A DNA stretch of 20,383 bases from a virus, in the IMG/VR virus record IMGVR_UViG_3300030943_000199, positions 1 to 20,383 of that record; one strand, written 5' to 3'. This document shows positions 3,414 through 19,746 of this stretch, piece after piece. Both the position numbers and the translations under genes were made by a program. Within the stretch, counting starts at the first letter, position 1. Every line of letters begins with the position of its first letter. Under the pieces are notes generated by a model. The model ran no database searches. It saw nothing but the letters and a program-made list of their open reading frames with translations, and had not been told where the DNA came from.

Positions 3414-3899
3414 TTACAGTTTAGGCTCAACACCAAATTTGGTTTTGTACTTCTCTACGTACAGGTCAGGGAACTTGTCTTTCAACTGAATCAACTTACC
3501 TGCTTTGTCCAATTCGTCCCATGTCTTTTTCTGGAAATCGGCCAATTCAACCGCAGGTATTTCTTTTGCTAATTCAATCTGCTTGGTAACCGACAACCGT
3601 GCAGGAATAGCTTCGAGAGTAGCTTTTGCACTATCGAAATCCTGATCGAACAGTTTTACAAAGGCTTCTTTGCCTTTAGCATCCAGACGGCCTTCTTTTA
3701 CTGCACCGTCAATCAGCGTAATAGCGTCAGCCGAACGTTGAGTTTTTTCGGCAACATTAATTTCCTCAATTCGATCTTGCAGCGTAACGTTTTCACCCTG
3801 AAGGCGATCACGGTCGGCAATAATCAAACCGATGGCGGCTTCACGATCGGCATCAGTTGCCGTATCAGCCAGATTCAGAATCTTATTCAATCCATCCAT
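3414..3899 (-). CDS. Possible nested scaffold protein from internal start (Mu gpZ-like)
   Basis: Within the protease/scaffold gene, Met170 (ATG at 3897-3899) is preceded by an A-rich run, AAAATAAAAAAA, the kind of upstream sequence favoured for initiation in Bacteroidota. Initiation there would give a 161-aa protein starting MDGLNKILNL and comprising only the helical scaffold part. Phage Mu makes its scaffold Z from inside gene I in the same way. The internal start is seen directly; its use is inference. Met157 (MDIKTE) is another candidate. Confidence 0.4.
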   Translation of the reverse strand: MDGLNKILNLADTATDADREAAIGLIIADRDRLQGENVTLQDRIEEINVAEKTQRSADAITLIDGAVKEGRLDAKGKEAFVKLFDQDFDSAKATLEAIPARLSVTKQIELAKEIPAVELADFQKKTWDELDKAGKLIQLKDKFPDLYVEKYKTKFGVEPKL

Positions 3900-4406
3900 T
3901 TTTTTTATTTTTGGTTTAACTTCTGTTTTTATGTCCATTAATTTTATCAATTCAGAAACATCTTTCACGTCAATCGGTTTGCCTGATTCACGATCGTAAA
4001 AACACATCGCATTGTGGTTCGATCCAATTGTTACAATTGAAGCTTCTCTAACCGTCCACTTGGTAACAACCGCAATATTTTCTCCAGGATGTTCCGGATC
4101 AGGTTCATATTCGATAGCTTCAGGAGGCCAGGAGCCTATTGATGCCATTCGAACGAAATTTCGATCGACCTTTCCTTGAACTTCAATGCCTTTTTTATCC
4201 TGATCATCGAAAACCGGATCACCAAGTATTTGAGTTCCTTCCTTTCTAATATTTTCCCACCGACCAATTGGCATGTCCCAGTCGTTGTGCATAAGTAACA
4301 TGACCGGATTCTTTGTGAACTCGTCAAGATTTGCTCCTGACGTGAGCATTTTAAAACCTTTGGTGTTTTTCGAATCGTCGTGTAGTACAAATGATTTTTT
4401 AGACAT
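3414..4406 (-). CDS. Prohead protease fused to scaffold-like domain (Mu gpI-like role)
   Basis: A 330-aa protein. Residues 1-140 look like a phage prohead serine protease: LLMHNDWDMPIGRW carries the likely catalytic His40, and REASIVTIGSN carries the likely Ser123, matching the His and E-x-S patterns of HK97-type proteases. Residues about 145-330 are helical, charged and rich in coiled coil (DRDRLQGENVTLQDRIEEI), as expected for an internal scaffold. The enzyme would cleave scaffold and capsid termini during head maturation. It is the first gene of the leftward late block, 31 bases before the capsid gene. In Mu the same protease-plus-scaffold fusion has an internal start that makes scaffold alone. 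A similar A-rich internal start is present here at Met170. Confidence 0.8.
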   Translation of the reverse strand: MSKKSFVLHDDSKNTKGFKMLTSGANLDEFTKNPVMLLMHNDWDMPIGRWENIRKEGTQILGDPVFDDQDKKGIEVQGKVDRNFVRMASIGSWPPEAIEYEPDPEHPGENIAVVTKWTVREASIVTIGSNHNAMCFYDRESGKPIDVKDVSELIKLMDIKTEVKPKIKKMDGLNKILNLADTATDADREAAIGLIIADRDRLQGENVTLQDRIEEINVAEKTQRSADAITLIDGAVKEGRLDAKGKEAFVKLFDQDFDSAKATLEAIPARLSVTKQIELAKEIPAVELADFQKKTWDELDKAGKLIQLKDKFPDLYVEKYKTKFGVEPKL

Positions 4407-4577
4407 CGCTTACATTTGATTTATTTTAATTGTTCGCTGCTGATTTTGAATCGAAATAACATTAAACTTTTACTTTAACCAAACAATGTGTTAAGCCTTA
4501 TAATTAATACTTTAACAGTTAATATGCTTTAGATTTTTCGCGCGGTTTAATTGTACATTTCGGGCAAACTTTTAATC
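4407..4577. promoter_or_regulatory. Divergent late promoter region
   Basis: This AT-rich stretch without a gene separates the leftward (protease, capsid, lysis, tail) and rightward (terminase, portal) late blocks, so it must hold promoters for both. No perfect TAnnTTTG box is visible. The nearest matches on the plus strand are TAGATTTT at 4530-4537 and TACATTTC at 4553-4560. ACTTTAAC occurs twice, near 4471 and 4509. Weak core promoters would fit activator-dependent late expression as in Mu. Confidence 0.4.
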
Positions 4578-7255: not shown

Positions 7256-9409
7256 ATGGTAACTATAAAACAAGAAACTAAAAAAGGGTCCAAGCAGCCA
7301 ATCATCACACAGATTGTTTTAAGGCCACCGTTGCGGAAAACATCAGATGTTGGTCAGTGGCGTACTGCGATGCAAAGTGCCGATATGGGTCGAATGAAAT
7401 TATTGTTCGATCTGTACGAAGACTTATTGATTGACGGCGTACTGGCTGATGCTGTCGATAAACGGATTAGTGCTGTTACTAACTCGCCATTAACTTTTCA
7501 GGATGAAAAAGGTTTAGATGTTCCTGAATTAACTGATTTGATTGATTCGCCAGCAATGGAAGAATTATTGACAACTATTATGATGGCTCGTTTTTGGGGA
7601 CGCGCTGCCGGTGAATTTGATTTCAGTGATGGCTTTTGTTTTAGTCAGATTCCATTCAAGCATATTAACCTGAAAAATAAAAACATTGTATTTAATGAAT
7701 ACGATGAAACCGGAGTTGATTACACCTCCGACGAACAACTTTTAGTAATCGGAAAAACCACTGATTTTGGTTTATTTCTGAAAACTGCACCGTTTGCAAT
7801 ATGGAAACGTGGAGGTTTTGGCGACTATGCTCAGTGGCTTGAACTATTCGGTATGCCGCAGCGCGTTGGTAAGTATTCGAGTTACGATCCGGAAAGCAGA
7901 AATACGCTGGTTCAAGCGATGGAACAAGCTGGATCAGCGCCTTGGATTGTTATACCGAAAGAGACCGATGTAGAGACCGTCAACAATACCGGTACTGCCG
8001 GATCAAGTTCTGCACACGACGAATTCAGAAAGGCATGTAACGAAGAGCTTCTGATTACTATTTTAGGCCAAACGATGACCACGCTTAACGGATCGAGTAA
8101 AGCACAGTCGTACACGCATAAAAAGGTTGAAGAGGGCAAAAACAGGTCAGACATGCGCTATGTTCGCCGCGTACTGAATAAGATGGTTTTGCCGTTACTC
8201 GAAAAACGGGGCTATCCTGTAACCGGTGGTAAGTTTGTGTTTCCTGAAGATGCTGAACCATTGGCGGTGGCTGATATGGCAACCCTTTGCGGATTGATTG
8301 ATATACCTGATAGTTATCTGCGTAATAAGTATTCGATACCAGTACCCAAAGATGGTGAAACGATTGCACGAGCTTCGACTTCAACAAGCTCAACTAACGG
8401 AACTCCGAAAGATGTACCGTTACCAACTCCTATTAAAGATAAAATAGCAGTTCCAGCCGATCCGGCCAAAGAGAAACCGGTTAAACTGATCGATGAAGAT
8501 CCAGAACGTGGTATAACGATTACCAAGAAAAGTGGTTTTGTTGAAAAGCTGAAAGGATTAGCTGATTTTTTCGTAGCAGCCCCAGGGAGAGGGGCAACAG
8601 TTATTTTGAGTGACGAGAAAAAAGTAAAACGCATCATTAATGTTGATAAGCTTTTTAACCAGGCTATCAAAAATATTTATGCGGCTGAAGGGATTATTGA
8701 CAATGCAGCATTAATTGATGAAAAGATTTTTGAATTGACTAATGCCGTTATGCAACATGCGTCGGAATCAACCTTTCTGAAAGCTGGTGTTGATTGGGGT
8801 AAGACAAACAAAGTATTTACGCAACAGTTCAGCGAAAATAGCGCCGTTTTTTCAGCATTTAAAAGCCATGATCAAACCGGAAAGATTGTTGGTTTGCTGA
8901 CCAACGAAGACGGTAGATTGAAAAGCTTTTCGGCTTTCAAAAAGGAAGCGCTGAAGATTTCGGAAGAGTATAACAAGTTGCATCTTCAAACCGAATACAA
9001 TACCGCAGTAAGGTCAGCACGCATGGCCGTAAACTGGAAAAAGTTTCAGGAGACTAAAAACCTTTATCCAAATCTGGAATACATGCCGAGTCGTGCAGCA
9101 AATCCACGCGAATCGCATACCGAACTATATCATCTAATCTTTCCGATGGATGATCCGTTCTGGGATACCAATCTGCCACCAAGCGACTGGAATTGTTTAT
9201 GTGGAGTACGACAGACCGACGAACCTCCAACTGTTCAACCCAATAACTGGCAGGAGCCTGAGGTTGATCCGGTGTTTGATAATAATCCGGGCGAAACAGG
9301 GCAATTCATCAACATTGAAGCTACGAACTATTATCAGGATGCAGCCGATGCTAAACGAGCCGATATCGAAGCTTTTGCCCGCGAAATGCTAAAGCAGTAC
9401 GAATCATGA
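7256..9409 (+). CDS. Fused portal (Mu gp29-like, DUF935) and head morphogenesis protein (Mu F-like)
   Basis: A 717-aa protein with two phage head modules. Residues 1 to about 365 are portal-like: LFDLYEDLLIDGVLADAVDK, RAAGEFDFSDGFCF, GGFGDYAQWLELFGMPQRVGKY and LLITILGQTMTTL are typical of the DUF935 gp29 family. Residues about 365-405 form a Ser/Thr/Pro linker. Residues about 445-717 are F-like (SPP1 gp7 type): YNTAVRSARMAVNWKKFQ near 580, and MDDPFWDTNLPPSDWNCLCG near 630-647 with the conserved Cys pair. In Mu the two are separate genes, gp29 and gp30 (F). The fusion ties one F-like copy to each of the portal subunits. The downstream G-like gene overlaps by four bases (ATGA). Confidence 0.9.
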   Translation: MVTIKQETKKGSKQPIITQIVLRPPLRKTSDVGQWRTAMQSADMGRMKLLFDLYEDLLIDGVLADAVDKRISAVTNSPLTFQDEKGLDVPELTDLIDSPAMEELLTTIMMARFWGRAAGEFDFSDGFCFSQIPFKHINLKNKNIVFNEYDETGVDYTSDEQLLVIGKTTDFGLFLKTAPFAIWKRGGFGDYAQWLELFGMPQRVGKYSSYDPESRNTLVQAMEQAGSAPWIVIPKETDVETVNNTGTAGSSSAHDEFRKACNEELLITILGQTMTTLNGSSKAQSYTHKKVEEGKNRSDMRYVRRVLNKMVLPLLEKRGYPVTGGKFVFPEDAEPLAVADMATLCGLIDIPDSYLRNKYSIPVPKDGETIARASTSTSSTNGTPKDVPLPTPIKDKIAVPADPAKEKPVKLIDEDPERGITITKKSGFVEKLKGLADFFVAAPGRGATVILSDEKKVKRIINVDKLFNQAIKNIYAAEGIIDNAALIDEKIFELTNAVMQHASESTFLKAGVDWGKTNKVFTQQFSENSAVFSAFKSHDQTGKIVGLLTNEDGRLKSFSAFKKEALKISEEYNKLHLQTEYNTAVRSARMAVNWKKFQETKNLYPNLEYMPSRAANPRESHTELYHLIFPMDDPFWDTNLPPSDWNCLCGVRQTDEPPTVQPNNWQEPEVDPVFDNNPGETGQFINIEATNYYQDAADAKRADIEAFAREMLKQYES

Positions 9410-10375: not shown

Positions 10376-10630
10376 TTAATTGATCCATACTAGATTCTTT
10401 TTTTTTGCTTTTTTCTTAATTTTTTCCTGACGAATTTTATACAGGAATCTTCTGAGTGCCTTAAAGTGATTTAATACTGTTGACCGCTGGTCGGCTGATG
10501 TTCCGCTGATATGATCCGATCCGATCCACGCTTCATACATTGTACTTAGCGTTCTACAATAGCCTTCCGGTGAGTCCTCCGACAGAAGCTCTTCAATCGA
10601 AGTTTGTTTTTCAGTTGTTGTTGTTGTCAT
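10376..10630 (-). CDS. Small protein of unknown function at the end of the leftward region
   Basis: An 84-aa protein with a Thr-rich start (MTTTTTEKQTSIEELLSED), a central helical part (GYCRTLSTMYEAWIGS) and a very basic C-terminus (RQEKIKKKAKKKNLVWIN). It has no signal peptide or known motif. The basic tail could bind nucleic acid. The stop sits next to the shared terminator. The ATG overlaps the stop of a short upstream open frame ending MKKLND (TAATG), so translation may be coupled to a leader. It lies 47 bases downstream of the structured element at 10678-10795. Function unknown. Confidence 0.6.
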   Translation of the reverse strand: MTTTTTEKQTSIEELLSEDSPEGYCRTLSTMYEAWIGSDHISGTSADQRSTVLNHFKALRRFLYKIRQEKIKKKAKKKNLVWIN

Positions 10631-10677
10631 TAGTCGTTAAGTTTTTTCATTATATAGATAATAAAACCGATGGAGGT

Positions 10678-10795
10678 GCATGTCACTTCATAAGCAATAC
10701 CCACAAAGCCGTTAGCCCTTACGGTGCTAACCCTCCACCGGCCATATTGTATAGCCAGAAGTGGAGTGGGTATTGATTTTTATGTAGTGACATGC
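10678..10795. ncRNA. 118-bp structured element with long closing stem and two inner hairpins
   Basis: The ends GCATGTCAC (10678-10686) and GTGACATGC (10787-10795) pair, as do CAATACCCAC (10695-10704) and GTGGGTATTG (10766-10775). The segments between them also pair partly, giving a stem of about 25 bp. Inside are a hairpin GTTAGC (10711-10716) with GCTAAC (10726-10731), and a second stem CTCCAC (10733-10738) with GTGGAG (10761-10766, sharing base 10766 with the outer stem) that contains GGC/GCC. The result is a three-way junction. It may act as RNA on either strand (as a leader of the 84-aa gene on the minus strand) or as a DNA site. The rest of 10631-10966 holds no convincing gene, only a terminator at 10891-10927. 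Confidence 0.6.
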
Positions 10796-10890
10796 GATAC
10801 GAAATAACAGATTTATGCGTTGGATTCAAAACGAAACCGCATTTTTTGTTATCAACAGCGAGCACAGGAACCCTTTGTTGAATCGGTAAT

Positions 10891-10966: not shown

Positions 10967-11527
10967 TTAGTTTTGTATAGTTTTTAATATGCCGTCCTCA
11001 AAATATAAATATCTGTTTTTATAATCCTTTCCTTCATATACCCATTGTTCGTGAACGCCAAATTCATAAGTTGTTACATTTTTATCATCTGGATATCCCC
11101 AACTTCTTTCAGCTTCATCGCTAGTAATACCAGGAAACAACTTTCCTTTTAATATATCATCAGCCTTATTCGTTCCATACTTTTCAACGAGGGTCTTTCT
11201 ATAAGTGTCACGAATCTCTTTTTCATGCTGCTTGATTTCAATACCCTCTTTATTCTTTCTTTCCTTAACAATGCTTATCAATTCGGGGTCATAAATGAAC
11301 AAATCAAGAACATATCCAATTTTGCCTTTATAATTAACCTTATAATAACCACCTTCTATATCAACAATATCAACCAAGTCCCCTTTTCTCATTTGTAGCA
11401 CTTCAGTACCAGGCATTGGCTTTTCGTTTAAGGAACACGACTTGGTAACCCTGCACGTTTTTATAATATCCTGACTAAACGTAAATATTGGAATAAAGAA
11501 TAAAAGAAAAATGAGTATTTTTTTCAT
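10967..11527 (-). CDS. Secreted SH3-domain protein with C-terminal SmpA/BamE-like segment (likely moron)
   Basis: A 186-aa protein from the ATG at 11525-11527. A signal peptide (MKKILIFLLFFIPIFTFSQ) suits type I cleavage just before the Gln, as is common in Bacteroidota. Residues about 22-75 look like a bacterial SH3 domain (GTEVLQMRKGDLVDIVDIEG, YYKVNYKGKIGYV). A charged helical linker follows, then about 60 residues (GITSDEAERSWGYPDD, EQWVYEG, RYLYFEDGILKTIQN) with the pattern of the SmpA/OmlA (BamE-like) fold. It probably works in the periplasm, perhaps on the cell wall or surface. An upstream start eight codons earlier lies over the promoter -7 box, so it is rejected. Own promoter and terminator suggest expression from the prophage independent of phage growth. 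Confidence 0.82.
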   Translation of the reverse strand: MKKILIFLLFFIPIFTFSQDIIKTCRVTKSCSLNEKPMPGTEVLQMRKGDLVDIVDIEGGYYKVNYKGKIGYVLDLFIYDPELISIVKERKNKEGIEIKQHEKEIRDTYRKTLVEKYGTNKADDILKGKLFPGITSDEAERSWGYPDDKNVTTYEFGVHEQWVYEGKDYKNRYLYFEDGILKTIQN

Positions 11528-11548
11528 AGCTATGGGTTTTGTTACTAT

Positions 11549-11580
11549 CAAATATACAACTAAACTCTGAATTTTTTAAA
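11549..11580 (-). promoter_or_regulatory. Bacteroidota-type promoter for the SH3-protein gene
   Basis: On the minus strand a perfect -7 box TATATTTG (11549-11556) is preceded by a 20-base spacer and TTTA (11577-11580), close to the -33 TTTG. Transcription would begin near 11541, giving a short leader before the ATG at 11527. The promoter overlaps the 3' end of the tandem-HTH gene. Confidence 0.7.
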
Positions 11581-15586: not shown

Positions 15587-15792
15587 TAGATTCTGTTTTG
15601 AATTTCGGTTAGTTTGTCGTACAGGTCTGCAATAGTTTTTTGCTGGTCTTTTTGGGTGTATTTGAACAGCTCTCCCCCGTAAAGAATATATCTCCAAACG
15701 TCTCTAAATAAAAATACCGACGCATAATAAATAGAGATGATTAAAAAGAAAGGAAATCCTATTATTCGAACAATAATTCTGTTTATAGTCAT
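15586..15792 (-). CDS. Small inner-membrane protein
   Basis: A 68-aa protein, MTINRIIVRIIGFPFFLIIS then IYYASVFLFRDVWRYILYGG and a soluble C-terminal helix (KDQQKTIADLYDKLTEIQNR). One long or two short membrane helices occupy residues 5-38. It overlaps the MuB-like gene by four bases (ATGA) and the next gene by one base, so it is clearly part of the transposition operon. Small membrane proteins in this position may modify the host envelope or exclude other phages, but no direct evidence exists. Confidence 0.72.
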   Translation of the reverse strand: MTINRIIVRIIGFPFFLIISIYYASVFLFRDVWRYILYGGELFKYTQKDQQKTIADLYDKLTEIQNRI

Positions 15793-16703
15793 GCTTCAGC
15801 CTCCTTACTTAAAATCAATAAACTTTCAGCGCGGCGAAGTCCACCTATGTGGCCGCCAGAGTCGTTTGCCAAACATCTTTTTGCAATAGTGTTAATCTGA
15901 TCAGGATTACAATTGTTAGCGCTCAAAACGTCCGAAATCAATTGTTTATACCAGACATTACGATCCTGACGTTCGCGGGGAACAACTGTTGAGAATTTTT
16001 CGGAGTAACGTGAGAAGATTTCAGCATATCCAACCTTCTTGTTGGCAATTCCGCGCTCAATTTTGGCGCGCAAACCGTCGGCACCCATCATATACCAGCC
16101 ACAATAGTTTTCGGTAGCGTTCCAAAGTTCTTTAAGTTCCAAAAAAGCTTCATATTCCAGGTCACCAGCTTCGTCAATAATTACAACAGGCTGATTAATG
16201 CTCTTTAGGTAAAATTTAAGGGTTTCCTTTACTGAAAAGTATTGTCCTTTGCTTTCGCCACCAACGGTTTTTGCAAGTAATCTGATAAATGCCTGGCGTG
16301 TTTTGGCCTGAGAAGCATCCACGTAAAACGTGTTTTTTATGGTTCTGCTTAAGTATTTAGCCGTGAAAGTTTTACCAATTCCGCAATCATCAACAAAAAT
16401 CATGGCTTTGGCGTGGTCCTTACAAAATTGGACACCTTTTTCAATAGTCACAAATACATCAGTGCGGGCAACATTCCATTTTCGGTCTTCAATGGTGATT
16501 CCCAAAAGTTGAGCCATCATAATCCATTGCGTAGTTCTCAGCAAACCCATATGTTCGCCTTTTTGCATACGCGACCAAATAGAAGCCGAAATGCCCAATG
16601 ATTTGGAAAACGATCCATCAGTACCATCGTAAAGTTTACGGCGTTCAATGGCTTCGTTAATGATCTTGATTTTAAATTCTGTGGTAAGTGTAATGGCACT
16701 CAT
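15789..16703 (-). CDS. MuB-like AAA ATPase, transposition target protein
   Basis: A 304-aa protein. The N-terminal 75 residues hold an HTH-like region (DGSFSKSLGISASIWSRMQK). The ATPase follows: Walker A DDCGIGKT (residues 105-112, Lys111), a substrate-strand FYVDASQAKTRQAFIRLLAK, Walker B VVIIDEAGDL with Asp177/Glu178, and sensor region MMGADGLRAKIERG. In Mu, B coats target DNA in an ATP-dependent way and brings transposase to new sites, while protecting the phage's own DNA from self-insertion. The first Gly of the usual GxxxxGKT is Asp here, which I also recall from relatives. It follows the transposase gene by 18 bases. Confidence 0.92.
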   Translation of the reverse strand: MSAITLTTEFKIKIINEAIERRKLYDGTDGSFSKSLGISASIWSRMQKGEHMGLLRTTQWIMMAQLLGITIEDRKWNVARTDVFVTIEKGVQFCKDHAKAMIFVDDCGIGKTFTAKYLSRTIKNTFYVDASQAKTRQAFIRLLAKTVGGESKGQYFSVKETLKFYLKSINQPVVIIDEAGDLEYEAFLELKELWNATENYCGWYMMGADGLRAKIERGIANKKVGYAEIFSRYSEKFSTVVPRERQDRNVWYKQLISDVLSANNCNPDQINTIAKRCLANDSGGHIGGLRRAESLLILSKEAEA

Positions 16704-16721: not shown

Positions 16722-18770
16722 TTAAAATGTGTCGTATAAACCTTTATTAAATGGCTTTGAAATGCTTTTGAAAAAGTCGTCTTCGTCTTCTGGCTCTTCC
16801 ATGATCTCAACCGGATCAATGCGTTCAGTAATTGGCTTGCGCATTCCTGAAATCTGGAATTTGTTGTTTAATGTCTTCGGAGTATTGTCGATCACGGTCA
16901 CGCGATCAACTTTATTCTTTTGGCTCCTGATGTATCCATCAACAGATGATACATATTTTGCCATTGCCGTGTAGTTGTCAATGTCTTCCGGAGTACGTTC
17001 GATCTGAGCCTTGTTATGCGAAGGTTTAAGAACAGCCTCACAAACACATCGATCAGTTCCGCGCAAATAGACCAGGGCTTTCATTATTTCACCATCGTTA
17101 CTATCTAACCAGTACACATCAAGCTCTTTTCCTTCAATTTGCGACATTAATCCAATCAGTTTTTCGCTATAAACGATCTTTCCATTTTCACCGATCAGGT
17201 ATTTTTTATTGTTTAAACTGATTTGTCCTACATTGCACGATGTTTCTGTTTTGTAACCCAAGTAAGGAAGGAAGGCGCGCCAGTTAGTCGGCATAATTTT
17301 TGGATTCTGTTTTTCGGTAAATACTTCCCAACGGGTTTTGCCTTTTATTTTCGAATGCTCCATATTATTCCAGGTCTCGATATCTTTTAGACAACCTTCA
17401 GCAAGTTGGTCGTATGGAACGTATGGTTGTGCTTTTGCTCCGGCCTGATTTGATTCTGAAAGTGCAAACGGACGAGCTAACCAGCCTTCTCTTTCTTTTT
17501 CAATGTCGTAACGAAGGTTTCCGTAATAGCGTTCGATGCGTTTTCCCCTGGCATTGTTGGCTTCGATGTGGGTAAACTGGAACATAGTGCCTTCCTGAAG
17601 AAAAGTGTTCAAAAACGAACTATTTAAACTCATTTCACCTTCTAATTCAGCTGGAAGATTAAAGCCCCATCCGGTATAATTACGAACCATCTGACGATAG
17701 AATTCAATGATAATTCCCTCTTTCGTTTGTCCATAAACCCATGCTGTAAATGCTTCAGAGCCTAAATCGATCCCATTATAGAACCACATACGCTTGCCTT
17801 TGGCATATTCAAACGGAGGTTGACGGTCATCAATCGATATAATTGATCCTGACATTTCAGGTTGTTTCATATCATGGAATGATCTGAACTTTGACATCCA
17901 AATTTGTCGGTTTCCGGAGCGTATGGTATGGGTTCCCACTTTGCTTGTCCATTTAGCTAGGTAATTTGTAATAGTGGCAGGAGAAAGTTTTGGAAATTCC
18001 TTCGGATCGTACATTTCTCCGGTAGTATTATTGATTACTTCAACATATCCGGCCAAAAATCCTTCGTATTGTCTTGAAATTCGGGTTGCAGTTGGTTTAT
18101 CTGTTTGGTAGGCAAACATCGAGTTCAGAAGATCAATCAGGCGATCATCAACTTTTAAAGCCGATTTATTACAGAAATTGCCGTGAATCAATGTTTCGTA
18201 ACCTTCTTTTTTGTAGTCTTTCAACTTACGGCGAAGACTTGCAGCGTTAGCCGGTAAGGTATGTTCCTGTATATCTCTGAAACGGTTACACTCGTTGGTA
18301 ACTGTAGTCCAAACATCGGCCACTCCACCGCGTAAACTTTTGCGAAGCTCGTAACGTTTTTTATAAAGCAGTTCAACGGTATTTAAAACCGAAGCATTCA
18401 TGGTATATTCATCAATCACATCATCCGGCAGTAATTTACCATCAGTCAATTGATAATTCGTGTAAAATTCAATAGCAACAGAGTCACGTGTGTAATATTT
18501 TTCGAAAAGCGACTGTTTAATCTGGCGTTGTGGCTCTCCAAATGTTTCAACCAATAGTTTCTGCCATTCGCGTGGAACAGTATCCCATTTAATTAATGAA
18601 GGTTGGTTTGGAGCCTGGGCCCTGAGCCTGATTGTTTTTCCAGATTCAATGCGGTTGCGTAAAGCCCTATCACTTATAAGACAAAGGCTTTCGTCAGCAG
18701 CATTGCGCCCTTCAAAAAGAACGCGAGCCTGTACACCTAGTTGATTATTGTGATATTCGTATGGAATCAT
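16722..18770 (-). CDS. MuA-type DDE transposase
   Basis: A 682-aa transposase; Mu A itself has 663 residues. Residues 1-300 hold DNA-binding and connector regions (RALRNRIESGKTIRLR, SLRRKLKDYKKEGYETLIHG). The RNase H-like catalytic core begins with GSIISIDDRQPPFE (Asp314/Asp315) and MWFYNGIDLGSEAFTAWVYG; the third acid is Glu413 in NNARGKRIERYYGNLR. The second acid of the triad is not an obvious Asp: LPAELEGE (Glu376/Glu378) occupies the place. The C-terminal domain (about 490-680) is beta-rich, then acidic and proline-containing, and probably contacts the MuB-like ATPase. It catalyses strand transfer of the phage ends. The ATG at 18768-18770 lies 16 bases after a hairpin. Confidence 0.94.
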   Translation of the reverse strand: MIPYEYHNNQLGVQARVLFEGRNAADESLCLISDRALRNRIESGKTIRLRAQAPNQPSLIKWDTVPREWQKLLVETFGEPQRQIKQSLFEKYYTRDSVAIEFYTNYQLTDGKLLPDDVIDEYTMNASVLNTVELLYKKRYELRKSLRGGVADVWTTVTNECNRFRDIQEHTLPANAASLRRKLKDYKKEGYETLIHGNFCNKSALKVDDRLIDLLNSMFAYQTDKPTATRISRQYEGFLAGYVEVINNTTGEMYDPKEFPKLSPATITNYLAKWTSKVGTHTIRSGNRQIWMSKFRSFHDMKQPEMSGSIISIDDRQPPFEYAKGKRMWFYNGIDLGSEAFTAWVYGQTKEGIIIEFYRQMVRNYTGWGFNLPAELEGEMSLNSSFLNTFLQEGTMFQFTHIEANNARGKRIERYYGNLRYDIEKEREGWLARPFALSESNQAGAKAQPYVPYDQLAEGCLKDIETWNNMEHSKIKGKTRWEVFTEKQNPKIMPTNWRAFLPYLGYKTETSCNVGQISLNNKKYLIGENGKIVYSEKLIGLMSQIEGKELDVYWLDSNDGEIMKALVYLRGTDRCVCEAVLKPSHNKAQIERTPEDIDNYTAMAKYVSSVDGYIRSQKNKVDRVTVIDNTPKTLNNKFQISGMRKPITERIDPVEIMEEPEDEDDFFKSISKPFNKGLYDTF

Positions 18771-19305: not shown

Positions 19306-19358
19306 ACAAATGACAATTTATTTTCATCAATTGACAATCTTTTTTATCAAATGACAAT
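19285..19358 (+). promoter_or_regulatory. Four phased operator-like repeats
   Basis: The 13-bp units ATCATTTGACAAC (19285), AACAAATGACAAT (19305), ATCAATTGACAAT (19326) and ATCAAATGACAAT (19346) start 20, 21 and 20 bases apart, about two helix turns, so all face the same side of the DNA. Three have the palindromic core TCAwwTGA; the second varies at one base. The fourth overlaps the repressor ATG, so binding there would also limit repressor expression. These are likely repressor and/or Ner-like binding sites. Confidence 0.85.
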
Positions 19359-19746
19359 AAACGAACGACTAGAGCTATTAATCAGTACTTTAAAACAGAA
19401 CAATAATTCGTTCTCGCATAGTATTGGTGTAAACTCAACCATAATTCACAACATAGTGAAAGGTCGTAATGCTCCCAGCTACGATATTTTGAATAAAATA
19501 GCATTGTCATATGATAATATCAATATGAATTGGTTAATTTCCGAGAGAGGGGAAATCTTAATAAATTCCGACAGTAATAATGTTGATACTGTAAAGGATT
19601 TCATTTCTATGCATCGACATAAACCGGCATCGTGCGAAAAATGCAAAGCAAAAGACCTGTTAATAGAAAGCCTAACCAGGGAAATTGAAACACAGAGCCA
19701 ATATTTATCACTACTTAAGCAAATAACCCCTCAAACTCAGAGGTAA
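19351..19746 (+). CDS. XRE-family phage repressor
   Basis: A 131-aa protein. Residues 1-65 form an XRE-type HTH (ERLELLISTLKQNNNSFSHS, then IGVNSTIIHNIVKGRNAPSY), followed by the SYDNINMNWLISERGEILI segment common in Bacteroidota repressors. The rest is polar with a CEKCKAKDLLIES piece and a C-terminal coiled coil (ESLTREIETQSQYLSLLKQI) that probably drives dimer or tetramer formation. There is no S24 peptidase domain, so RecA-triggered self-cleavage is not expected; Mu c also lacks it. It is divergent from the Ner-like gene and likely keeps the lytic promoter shut by binding the four phased repeats. Confidence 0.85.
   Translation: MTINERLELLISTLKQNNNSFSHSIGVNSTIIHNIVKGRNAPSYDILNKIALSYDNINMNWLISERGEILINSDSNNVDTVKDFISMHRHKPASCEKCKAKDLLIESLTREIETQSQYLSLLKQITPQTQR

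Follow-up and report, generated by a model that had tools for sequence, protein, structure and literature searches.

Background

What is an extensively base-paired 118-bp element, at positions 10678-10795 between a putative 'moron' gene and a gene of 84 amino acids (aa), doing in the genome of a Mu-like phage? The window, meaning the whole stretch of 20,383 bases analyzed here, is one IMG/VR virus record with a Mu-like gene set that includes a Mu portal gene (7256-9409; PF06074), a transposase (16722-18770; phrog_310) and its AAA partner (15789-16703); a putative repressor gene lies at 19351-19746. The phage host is probably a Bacteroidales bacterium, because relatives of a neighboring 149-aa gene sit in Prolixibacteraceae, Phocaeicola, Bacteroides and Alistipes genomes. 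The 'moron' (10967-11551, minus strand) encodes a signal-like N-terminus, a weak match to SH3_3 that is below the cut-off, and a C-terminus that matches phrog_11546, a family of unknown function. An initial annotation of the element described a closing stem of about 25 bp with two inner hairpins, judged them too extensive for chance and not a terminator, and proposed a structured RNA (leader or small RNA), a DNA site for replication or packaging, or a small mobile palindromic element.

C4, an antisense RNA of phages P1 and P7, silences an antirepressor and accounts for heteroimmunity (PMC12197685, PMC8546580). RNase P processes C4 (PMC5320573), the active form being about 77 nt long, and two of its segments, a' and b', bind the mRNA close to the ribosome-binding site (PMC5320573).

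Results

A minus-strand RNA unit of about 140 nt

Folding of positions 10678-10795 gave energies of -52.5 kcal/mol on the plus strand and -58.7 kcal/mol on the minus strand. The means for 200 dinucleotide shuffles were -26 to -29 kcal/mol (z scores of -9.3 and -9.0) and no shuffle folded as well, which confirms that the closing stem and its inner hairpins are beyond chance. In a plus-strand scan, the sole other 118-nt stretch as strongly folded (-47 kcal/mol) lies in coding sequence at about 1291-1440.

Four pairs of the outer closing stem are G.U on the minus strand where the plus strand has A.C, versus none in the opposite sense, and a plus-strand RNA is disfavored by this asymmetry. Because of these pairs, a GNRA loop, a promoter-like motif and the codirectional 84-aa gene, the RNA strand is, as judged from sequence features, the minus strand. 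This reading explains the G.U pairs and the GNRA loop, as well as a U-run described below.

The conserved unit measures about 140 nt on the minus strand, to which all of its parts belong. It opens with a promoter-like motif (10800-10830), consisting of TTTG at -33 (10827-10830), a 20-nt spacer and TATTTCG at -7 (10800-10806), 4 nt before the closing stem. By eye, TTTG-N20-TAWTTCG/TATTTAG is common to the window and three homologues, L005, L010 and L017, and the -7 box is degenerate in the window and the RNAs of the 84-aa type. The 5' arm of the closing stem, called P1 here as distinct from phage P1, follows (10766-10795; GCATGTCACTACATAA...CAATACCCAC). Next come hairpin A (10738-10758; CTGGCTATA...TATGGCCGG), for which C-G and U-A alternatives are seen in L010 and L017; segment x (10732-10743; GGCCGGTGGAGG), overlapped by the 3' strand of hairpin A; and hairpin B (10711-10731; GTTAGCACC-GTAA-GG-GCTAAC), in which four outer base pairs are followed by CC-GNRA-GG. 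Beyond the 3' arm of P1 (10678-10704) lie x' (10665-10676; CCTCCATCGGTT), which is the complement of x and pairs with it, and, directly after x', a U-run (10658-10666; TTTTATTAT) that is present in 5/5 homologues. Some 30-40 nt then separate the RNA from the start codon of the 84-aa gene (10376-10630, minus strand) directly downstream. The 118-bp structure is real but is only part of the unit, with x' and the U-run outside it on one side and the promoter-like motif on the other. The closing stem is no terminator, as was annotated, but x:x' and the U-run just outside it have the anatomy of an intrinsic one.

Homologues and compensatory changes

The region occurs identically in two other contigs. 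Diverged homologues in L005, L010 and L017 are placed likewise, each upstream of a homologue of the 84-aa gene and in the same orientation as it, and the 84-aa proteins of the phages that bear them are 44-82% identical. The L017 locus is also found in a Prolixibacteraceae genome contig (L018). A nucleotide profile of the window, L005, L010 and L017 recovered a fifth copy, L048 (E 1e-10), directly 5' of a 238-aa antirepressor-like gene. Pattern matches in L006, L007 and L013 were coincidences without such a structure.

Although the sequences differ, each copy retains 10-12 bp of complementarity between x and x'. When x:x' and hairpin B were considered together in the alignment of five sequences, 100% of cells were paired and 8 of 17 pairs had changed on both sides; shuffles averaged 2.5 such pairs, with none reaching 8, and pairing fell to 29-57% when the partner was slid by 1-3 columns. 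An alignment of eight sequences gave 100% pairing and 12/17 both-side changes (shuffled mean 4.5), counts that lean towards the covariance model to which this alignment was fitted. For x:x' alone, doubly compensated pairs numbered 5/11 with five sequences and 8/11 with eight, and three of the four outer pairs of hairpin B were doubly compensated. With arms set by hand and one bulged G taken out in L017, the outer 16 pairs of P1 had 75 of 80 cells paired, against a mean of 59 when arms were exchanged between sequences, and 9 of the 16 had both-side changes. By these alignment counts, P1 and x:x' are both maintained by compensation. The initial annotation had made its claim depend on homologues with compensatory base changes, and these were found in abundance at the same place in related phages, in support of a structured RNA, whether leader or small RNA.

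The geometry of the unit would make P1 and x:x' mutually exclusive. A pseudoknot, in which both would be formed together, was set aside by inference, given the P1 length of about 25 bp and the distance of 1-2 nt between its base and x'.

Relatives upstream of antirepressor genes

An RNA of the same plan stands directly 5' of an antirepressor gene in L005, L017, L034, L036, L037 and L048. These antirepressors include AntA (L005), KilA-N (L017) and Bro-N (L036) types; those of L034 and L048 are Bro-N/ORF6N-like, below the Pfam cut-off, and that of L037 was assigned by similarity to these. In these antirepressor-linked relatives, the start-codon region of the gene is duplicated upstream as the 5' arm of P1, and this makes the 3' arm antisense to that start codon. 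The antisense stretch is 7-13 nt long and is illustrated by the L005 antirepressor leader (ATTGTAAGTCA against TGACTTACAAT(GG)).

A scan for the series of 5' arm, x, 3' arm, x', U-run and start yielded 26 genes, with duplicates and matches before short frames left out; this number is not a frequency, the scanned loci having mostly been fetched via antirepressor genes. Most of the 26 count as antirepressors because of a motif or of the query used to retrieve them, and the 235-aa gene of L038 is unclassified. Dinucleotide-shuffled sequence, run twice as a control (3.8 Mb of strand), gave a single match. Of the 26, 23 have the Bacteroidota -7 box TAnnTTTG no more than 35 nt upstream of the stem, as compared with 2.6% of random positions, and because of this placement the transcript likely starts at the 5' arm of P1.

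Covariance models and the link to c4-2

Covariance model R1, built only from window-type RNAs with L048 included, independently found matches at the expected position immediately before antirepressor genes in L082 (E 7e-15), L114 (1.6e-8), L127 (4e-6) and L090 (0.0017), these E-values and those of the second model, R2, being based on a shortened calibration. Across 393 Bacteroidales genomes the one true case for R1 was the L018 genome, which was already known; two weak matches of 51-63 nt were not credited. R2 adds L096, L116, L106 and L163, the last of which is itself Rfam c4-2 (RF02944) above the cut-off. Within the same family as the L018 genome, R2 gave three further good matches, with L170 and L172 before antirepressors and L171 in the layout of the window. 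Applied to c4-2 members, it matched in the right place in L163 (E 8e-4), L158 (0.07) and L169 (0.16) and left the other 12 unmatched, with noise matches reaching E 0.01.

c4-2 is grouped with C4 in clan CL00128. The Rfam c4-2 model scored 41.2 bits in L038 (cut-off 41) and 26-36 bits in L083, L100, L103, L106 and L107, and it exceeded the cut-off in 13 of 384 Bacteroidales genomes. The window RNA does not reach its gathering score of 41 bits, and the L005, L010, L017 and L048 elements gave no match to it even at E 2. An Rfam scan of the window matched no model to the element, whether at the gathering threshold or at E 10, and the C4 clan, with C4 and c4-2, gave no match even at E 10 over 301 bases. 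The window RNA is not a member of RF01695 (C4) or RF02944 as these models stand.

The c4-2 consensus, as seen in one alignment with the L017 antirepressor leader, is an x:x' outer stem around a GNRA hairpin, with U's at the end. The window RNA follows this plan, its x:x' outer stem enclosing a GNRA hairpin and U's coming after it. The Rfam model (79 positions) omits the 5' arm and hence the closing stem. Among c4-2 loci that were collected irrespective of their genes, L155, L156, L157 and L166 clearly have both the upstream copy and the antisense to the start codon, often before genes of 74-91 aa; a script search of 15 c4-2 loci for the two features gave no convincing match in about half or more.

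The 84-aa gene and the solo RNAs

The 84-aa protein is basic with a lysine-rich tail, and searches of Pfam, PHROGs and NCBIfam assigned it to no family. Its homologues are also encoded by small genes that follow the antirepressors in the operons of L005, L017 and L034. Two 84-aa paralogues are present per phage in L005 (1968-2186 and 1433-1678, minus strand) and L017 (3560-3754 and 4010-4255, plus strand), one behind the antirepressor and one behind a solo RNA, which amounts to two tandem RNA-gene modules with different x sequences. A tiny frame ends on the start codon of the 84-aa gene in the window (10628-10652, minus strand; ATGAAAAAACTTAACGACTAATG) and in L010 (5977-6005, plus strand; ATGCAATCTAAACCTAATTACTTATGA), as if the two were translationally coupled; no such frame was seen in L005.

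The gene behind each of the five solo RNAs (window, L005, L010, L017 and L171) is a small one and not an antirepressor. In L171 (1501-1894), from the Prolixibacteraceae host family of the L018 genome, the solo RNA is followed by a different gene of 67 aa and then by a 149-aa homologue, in the same genomic place. Complementarity of the b' type to the RNA's own downstream start region is absent from the window, L005, L017 and L171 solo RNAs and reaches 6 nt in L010. For four of the five, the 8-mer complementary to the 3' arm of P1 is identical to the start of an antirepressor gene of a different phage, with the U of AUG in register (control 8-mers, 3.3%): L005 and L171 match L082, L010 matches L048 and L172, and L017 matches L114. 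The 3' arm of the window RNA (target TGCATGTCAC) has no 8-nt match to an antirepressor start in the set, its longest being 7 nt and at chance level, and the unregistered match lengths of the 3' arms are unremarkable (p 0.03-0.5). The matches to foreign antirepressor starts may reflect either descent or function in trans, for which the same sequences would be expected. A search for trans targets of the window RNA in its own genome returned about 20 matches of similar score, at chance level. One of these (4400-4414, minus strand) forms 15 contiguous pairs, including G.U, across the start codon of a 330-aa head-region gene (3414-4406).

Discussion

We consider it quite probable that the element is a minus-strand C4-like regulatory RNA and a diverged relative of the c4-2 and antirepressor-leader RNAs, with a predicted transcription start and two folds that would exclude each other. 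Our preferred reading of the window RNA is a diverged, C4-like antisense/attenuator RNA of the 'solo' kind. This reading builds on what the sequence comparisons demonstrate, namely the structure of P1 and hairpin B, the complementarity of x and x' with the adjoining U-run, homology to antirepressor leaders, and the start-codon antisense of the relatives.

Transcription would begin at the 5' arm of P1. In one fold, P1 and hairpin A would keep x from x' and transcription would read on into the 84-aa gene; in the other, the x:x' stem of 10-12 bp ending in the U-run would stop transcription and leave an RNA of about 140 nt. The predicted P1 fold is better than the x:x' fold by about 14-20 kcal/mol in RNAs of the 84-aa type and by about 2 kcal/mol in L048, and removal of the 5' arm makes the x:x' fold the predicted one. 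Since the P1 fold is favored energetically, termination in cis would need the 5' arm to be removed, processed or blocked. A processed or earlier-made copy of the RNA could also pair its x with the x' of new transcripts in trans, as for C4 of phage P1, and such pairing would keep the downstream gene off in the lysogen. Position and x:x' together suggest that the 84-aa gene is under control of the RNA.

In the phage P1 record the order is a1/b1, the 77-nt C4, a2 (4 nt after C4), b2, icd and ant, and we verified in the sequence that C4 contains complements of a1/a2 and b2. Like C4 (RF01695), the window RNA is a three-stem RNA with a long closing stem, a hairpin with a stable tetraloop and a second hairpin (PMC5320573, PMC12197685). 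Both have an internal antisense segment whose target is directly 3', a2 in phage P1 and x' after the closing stem here. By role, x corresponds to a' of phage P1 C4, x' to a2 and the start codon to b2. An upstream copy of the target region and a downstream antirepressor operon are likenesses of the antirepressor-linked relatives only; in gene order, the RNAs of L048, L082, L114, L127 and L090 do precede antirepressors, and in the window the 84-aa gene stands in that place. Unlike C4, these RNAs belong to Bacteroidota phages and are unmatched by the Rfam C4 model, the U-run after x' means that x:x' may double as a terminator, and the closing stem rather than a hairpin loop holds the start-codon antisense. 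The window RNA differs further in its downstream gene, the 84-aa gene, and in its missing start-codon antisense. Its anatomy nevertheless suggests that it may work like C4 RNA. The sar RNA of phage P22 and the micro-RNA-sized 24B_1 of phage Phi24B resemble it in role, a likeness drawn from the literature only, as small phage RNAs that lower antirepressor synthesis (PMC12197685), but they differ in structure and gene arrangement.

A rather unlikely alternative is that the RNA stands alone and acts in trans, with x:x' merely its terminator, the 84-aa gene a mere neighbor, and the 3' arm of P1 directed against the antirepressor starts of related, superinfecting phages. The in-register matches of four of the five solo RNAs, well above the 8-mer controls, fit this idea, as does the different 67-aa gene behind the L171 RNA. 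However, descent from an antirepressor-linked RNA yields the same pattern, the arm of the window RNA is without an 8-nt match, and the unregistered match lengths are unremarkable.

We give little credence to the RNA being a degenerate, non-functional relic of an antirepressor control module whose antirepressor was lost. Such a relic would account for the want of a recognizable antirepressor beside the element in the window and of complementarity to its own start codon, but diverged solo copies still preserve P1, x:x' and hairpin B through compensatory change, which would not be expected of one. It is similarly improbable that the element is a ligand-sensing riboswitch or a protein-bound leader of the 84-aa gene, for example one through which the basic 84-aa product regulates itself. 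The 5' leader position, two exclusive folds, terminator anatomy and lysine-rich tail of the protein would all suit such a leader, yet the sequences of x and x' differ freely across relatives provided that complementarity is kept, which does not fit a ligand pocket, and the relatives precede unrelated gene families (AntA, KilA-N and Bro-N). A palindrome acting as DNA, either a mobile MITE/REP-like element or a replication or packaging site, can practically be dismissed in spite of the long 118-bp inverted repeat, since it is a single copy in the contig without target duplication, blastn found no copies in 50,697 phage or 72,556 plasmid records, it keeps a fixed context beside homologues of the same gene in diverged phages, and the G.U pairs on one strand only, with the U-run and promoter-like context, point to RNA.

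Conclusions

With the C4-like reading, an unexplained palindrome becomes a candidate regulatory RNA that is open to testing. The relatives show that C4-like RNAs of differing specificity are present in considerable number in Bacteroidota phages and prophages, where they stand before several types of antirepressor. The c4-2 model does not include the copied start-codon region with which the RNA begins at its 5' end. More speculatively, and in our view doubtfully, solo C4-like RNAs may provide superinfection immunity in trans through variable arms antisense to the antirepressor start codons of competing Bacteroidota phages; if this is true, they would silence the escape of those phages from repression. 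A literature search on lysis-lysogeny or superinfection control in Bacteroidota phages found nothing. The RNAs described here may offer an entry point to both in these phages.
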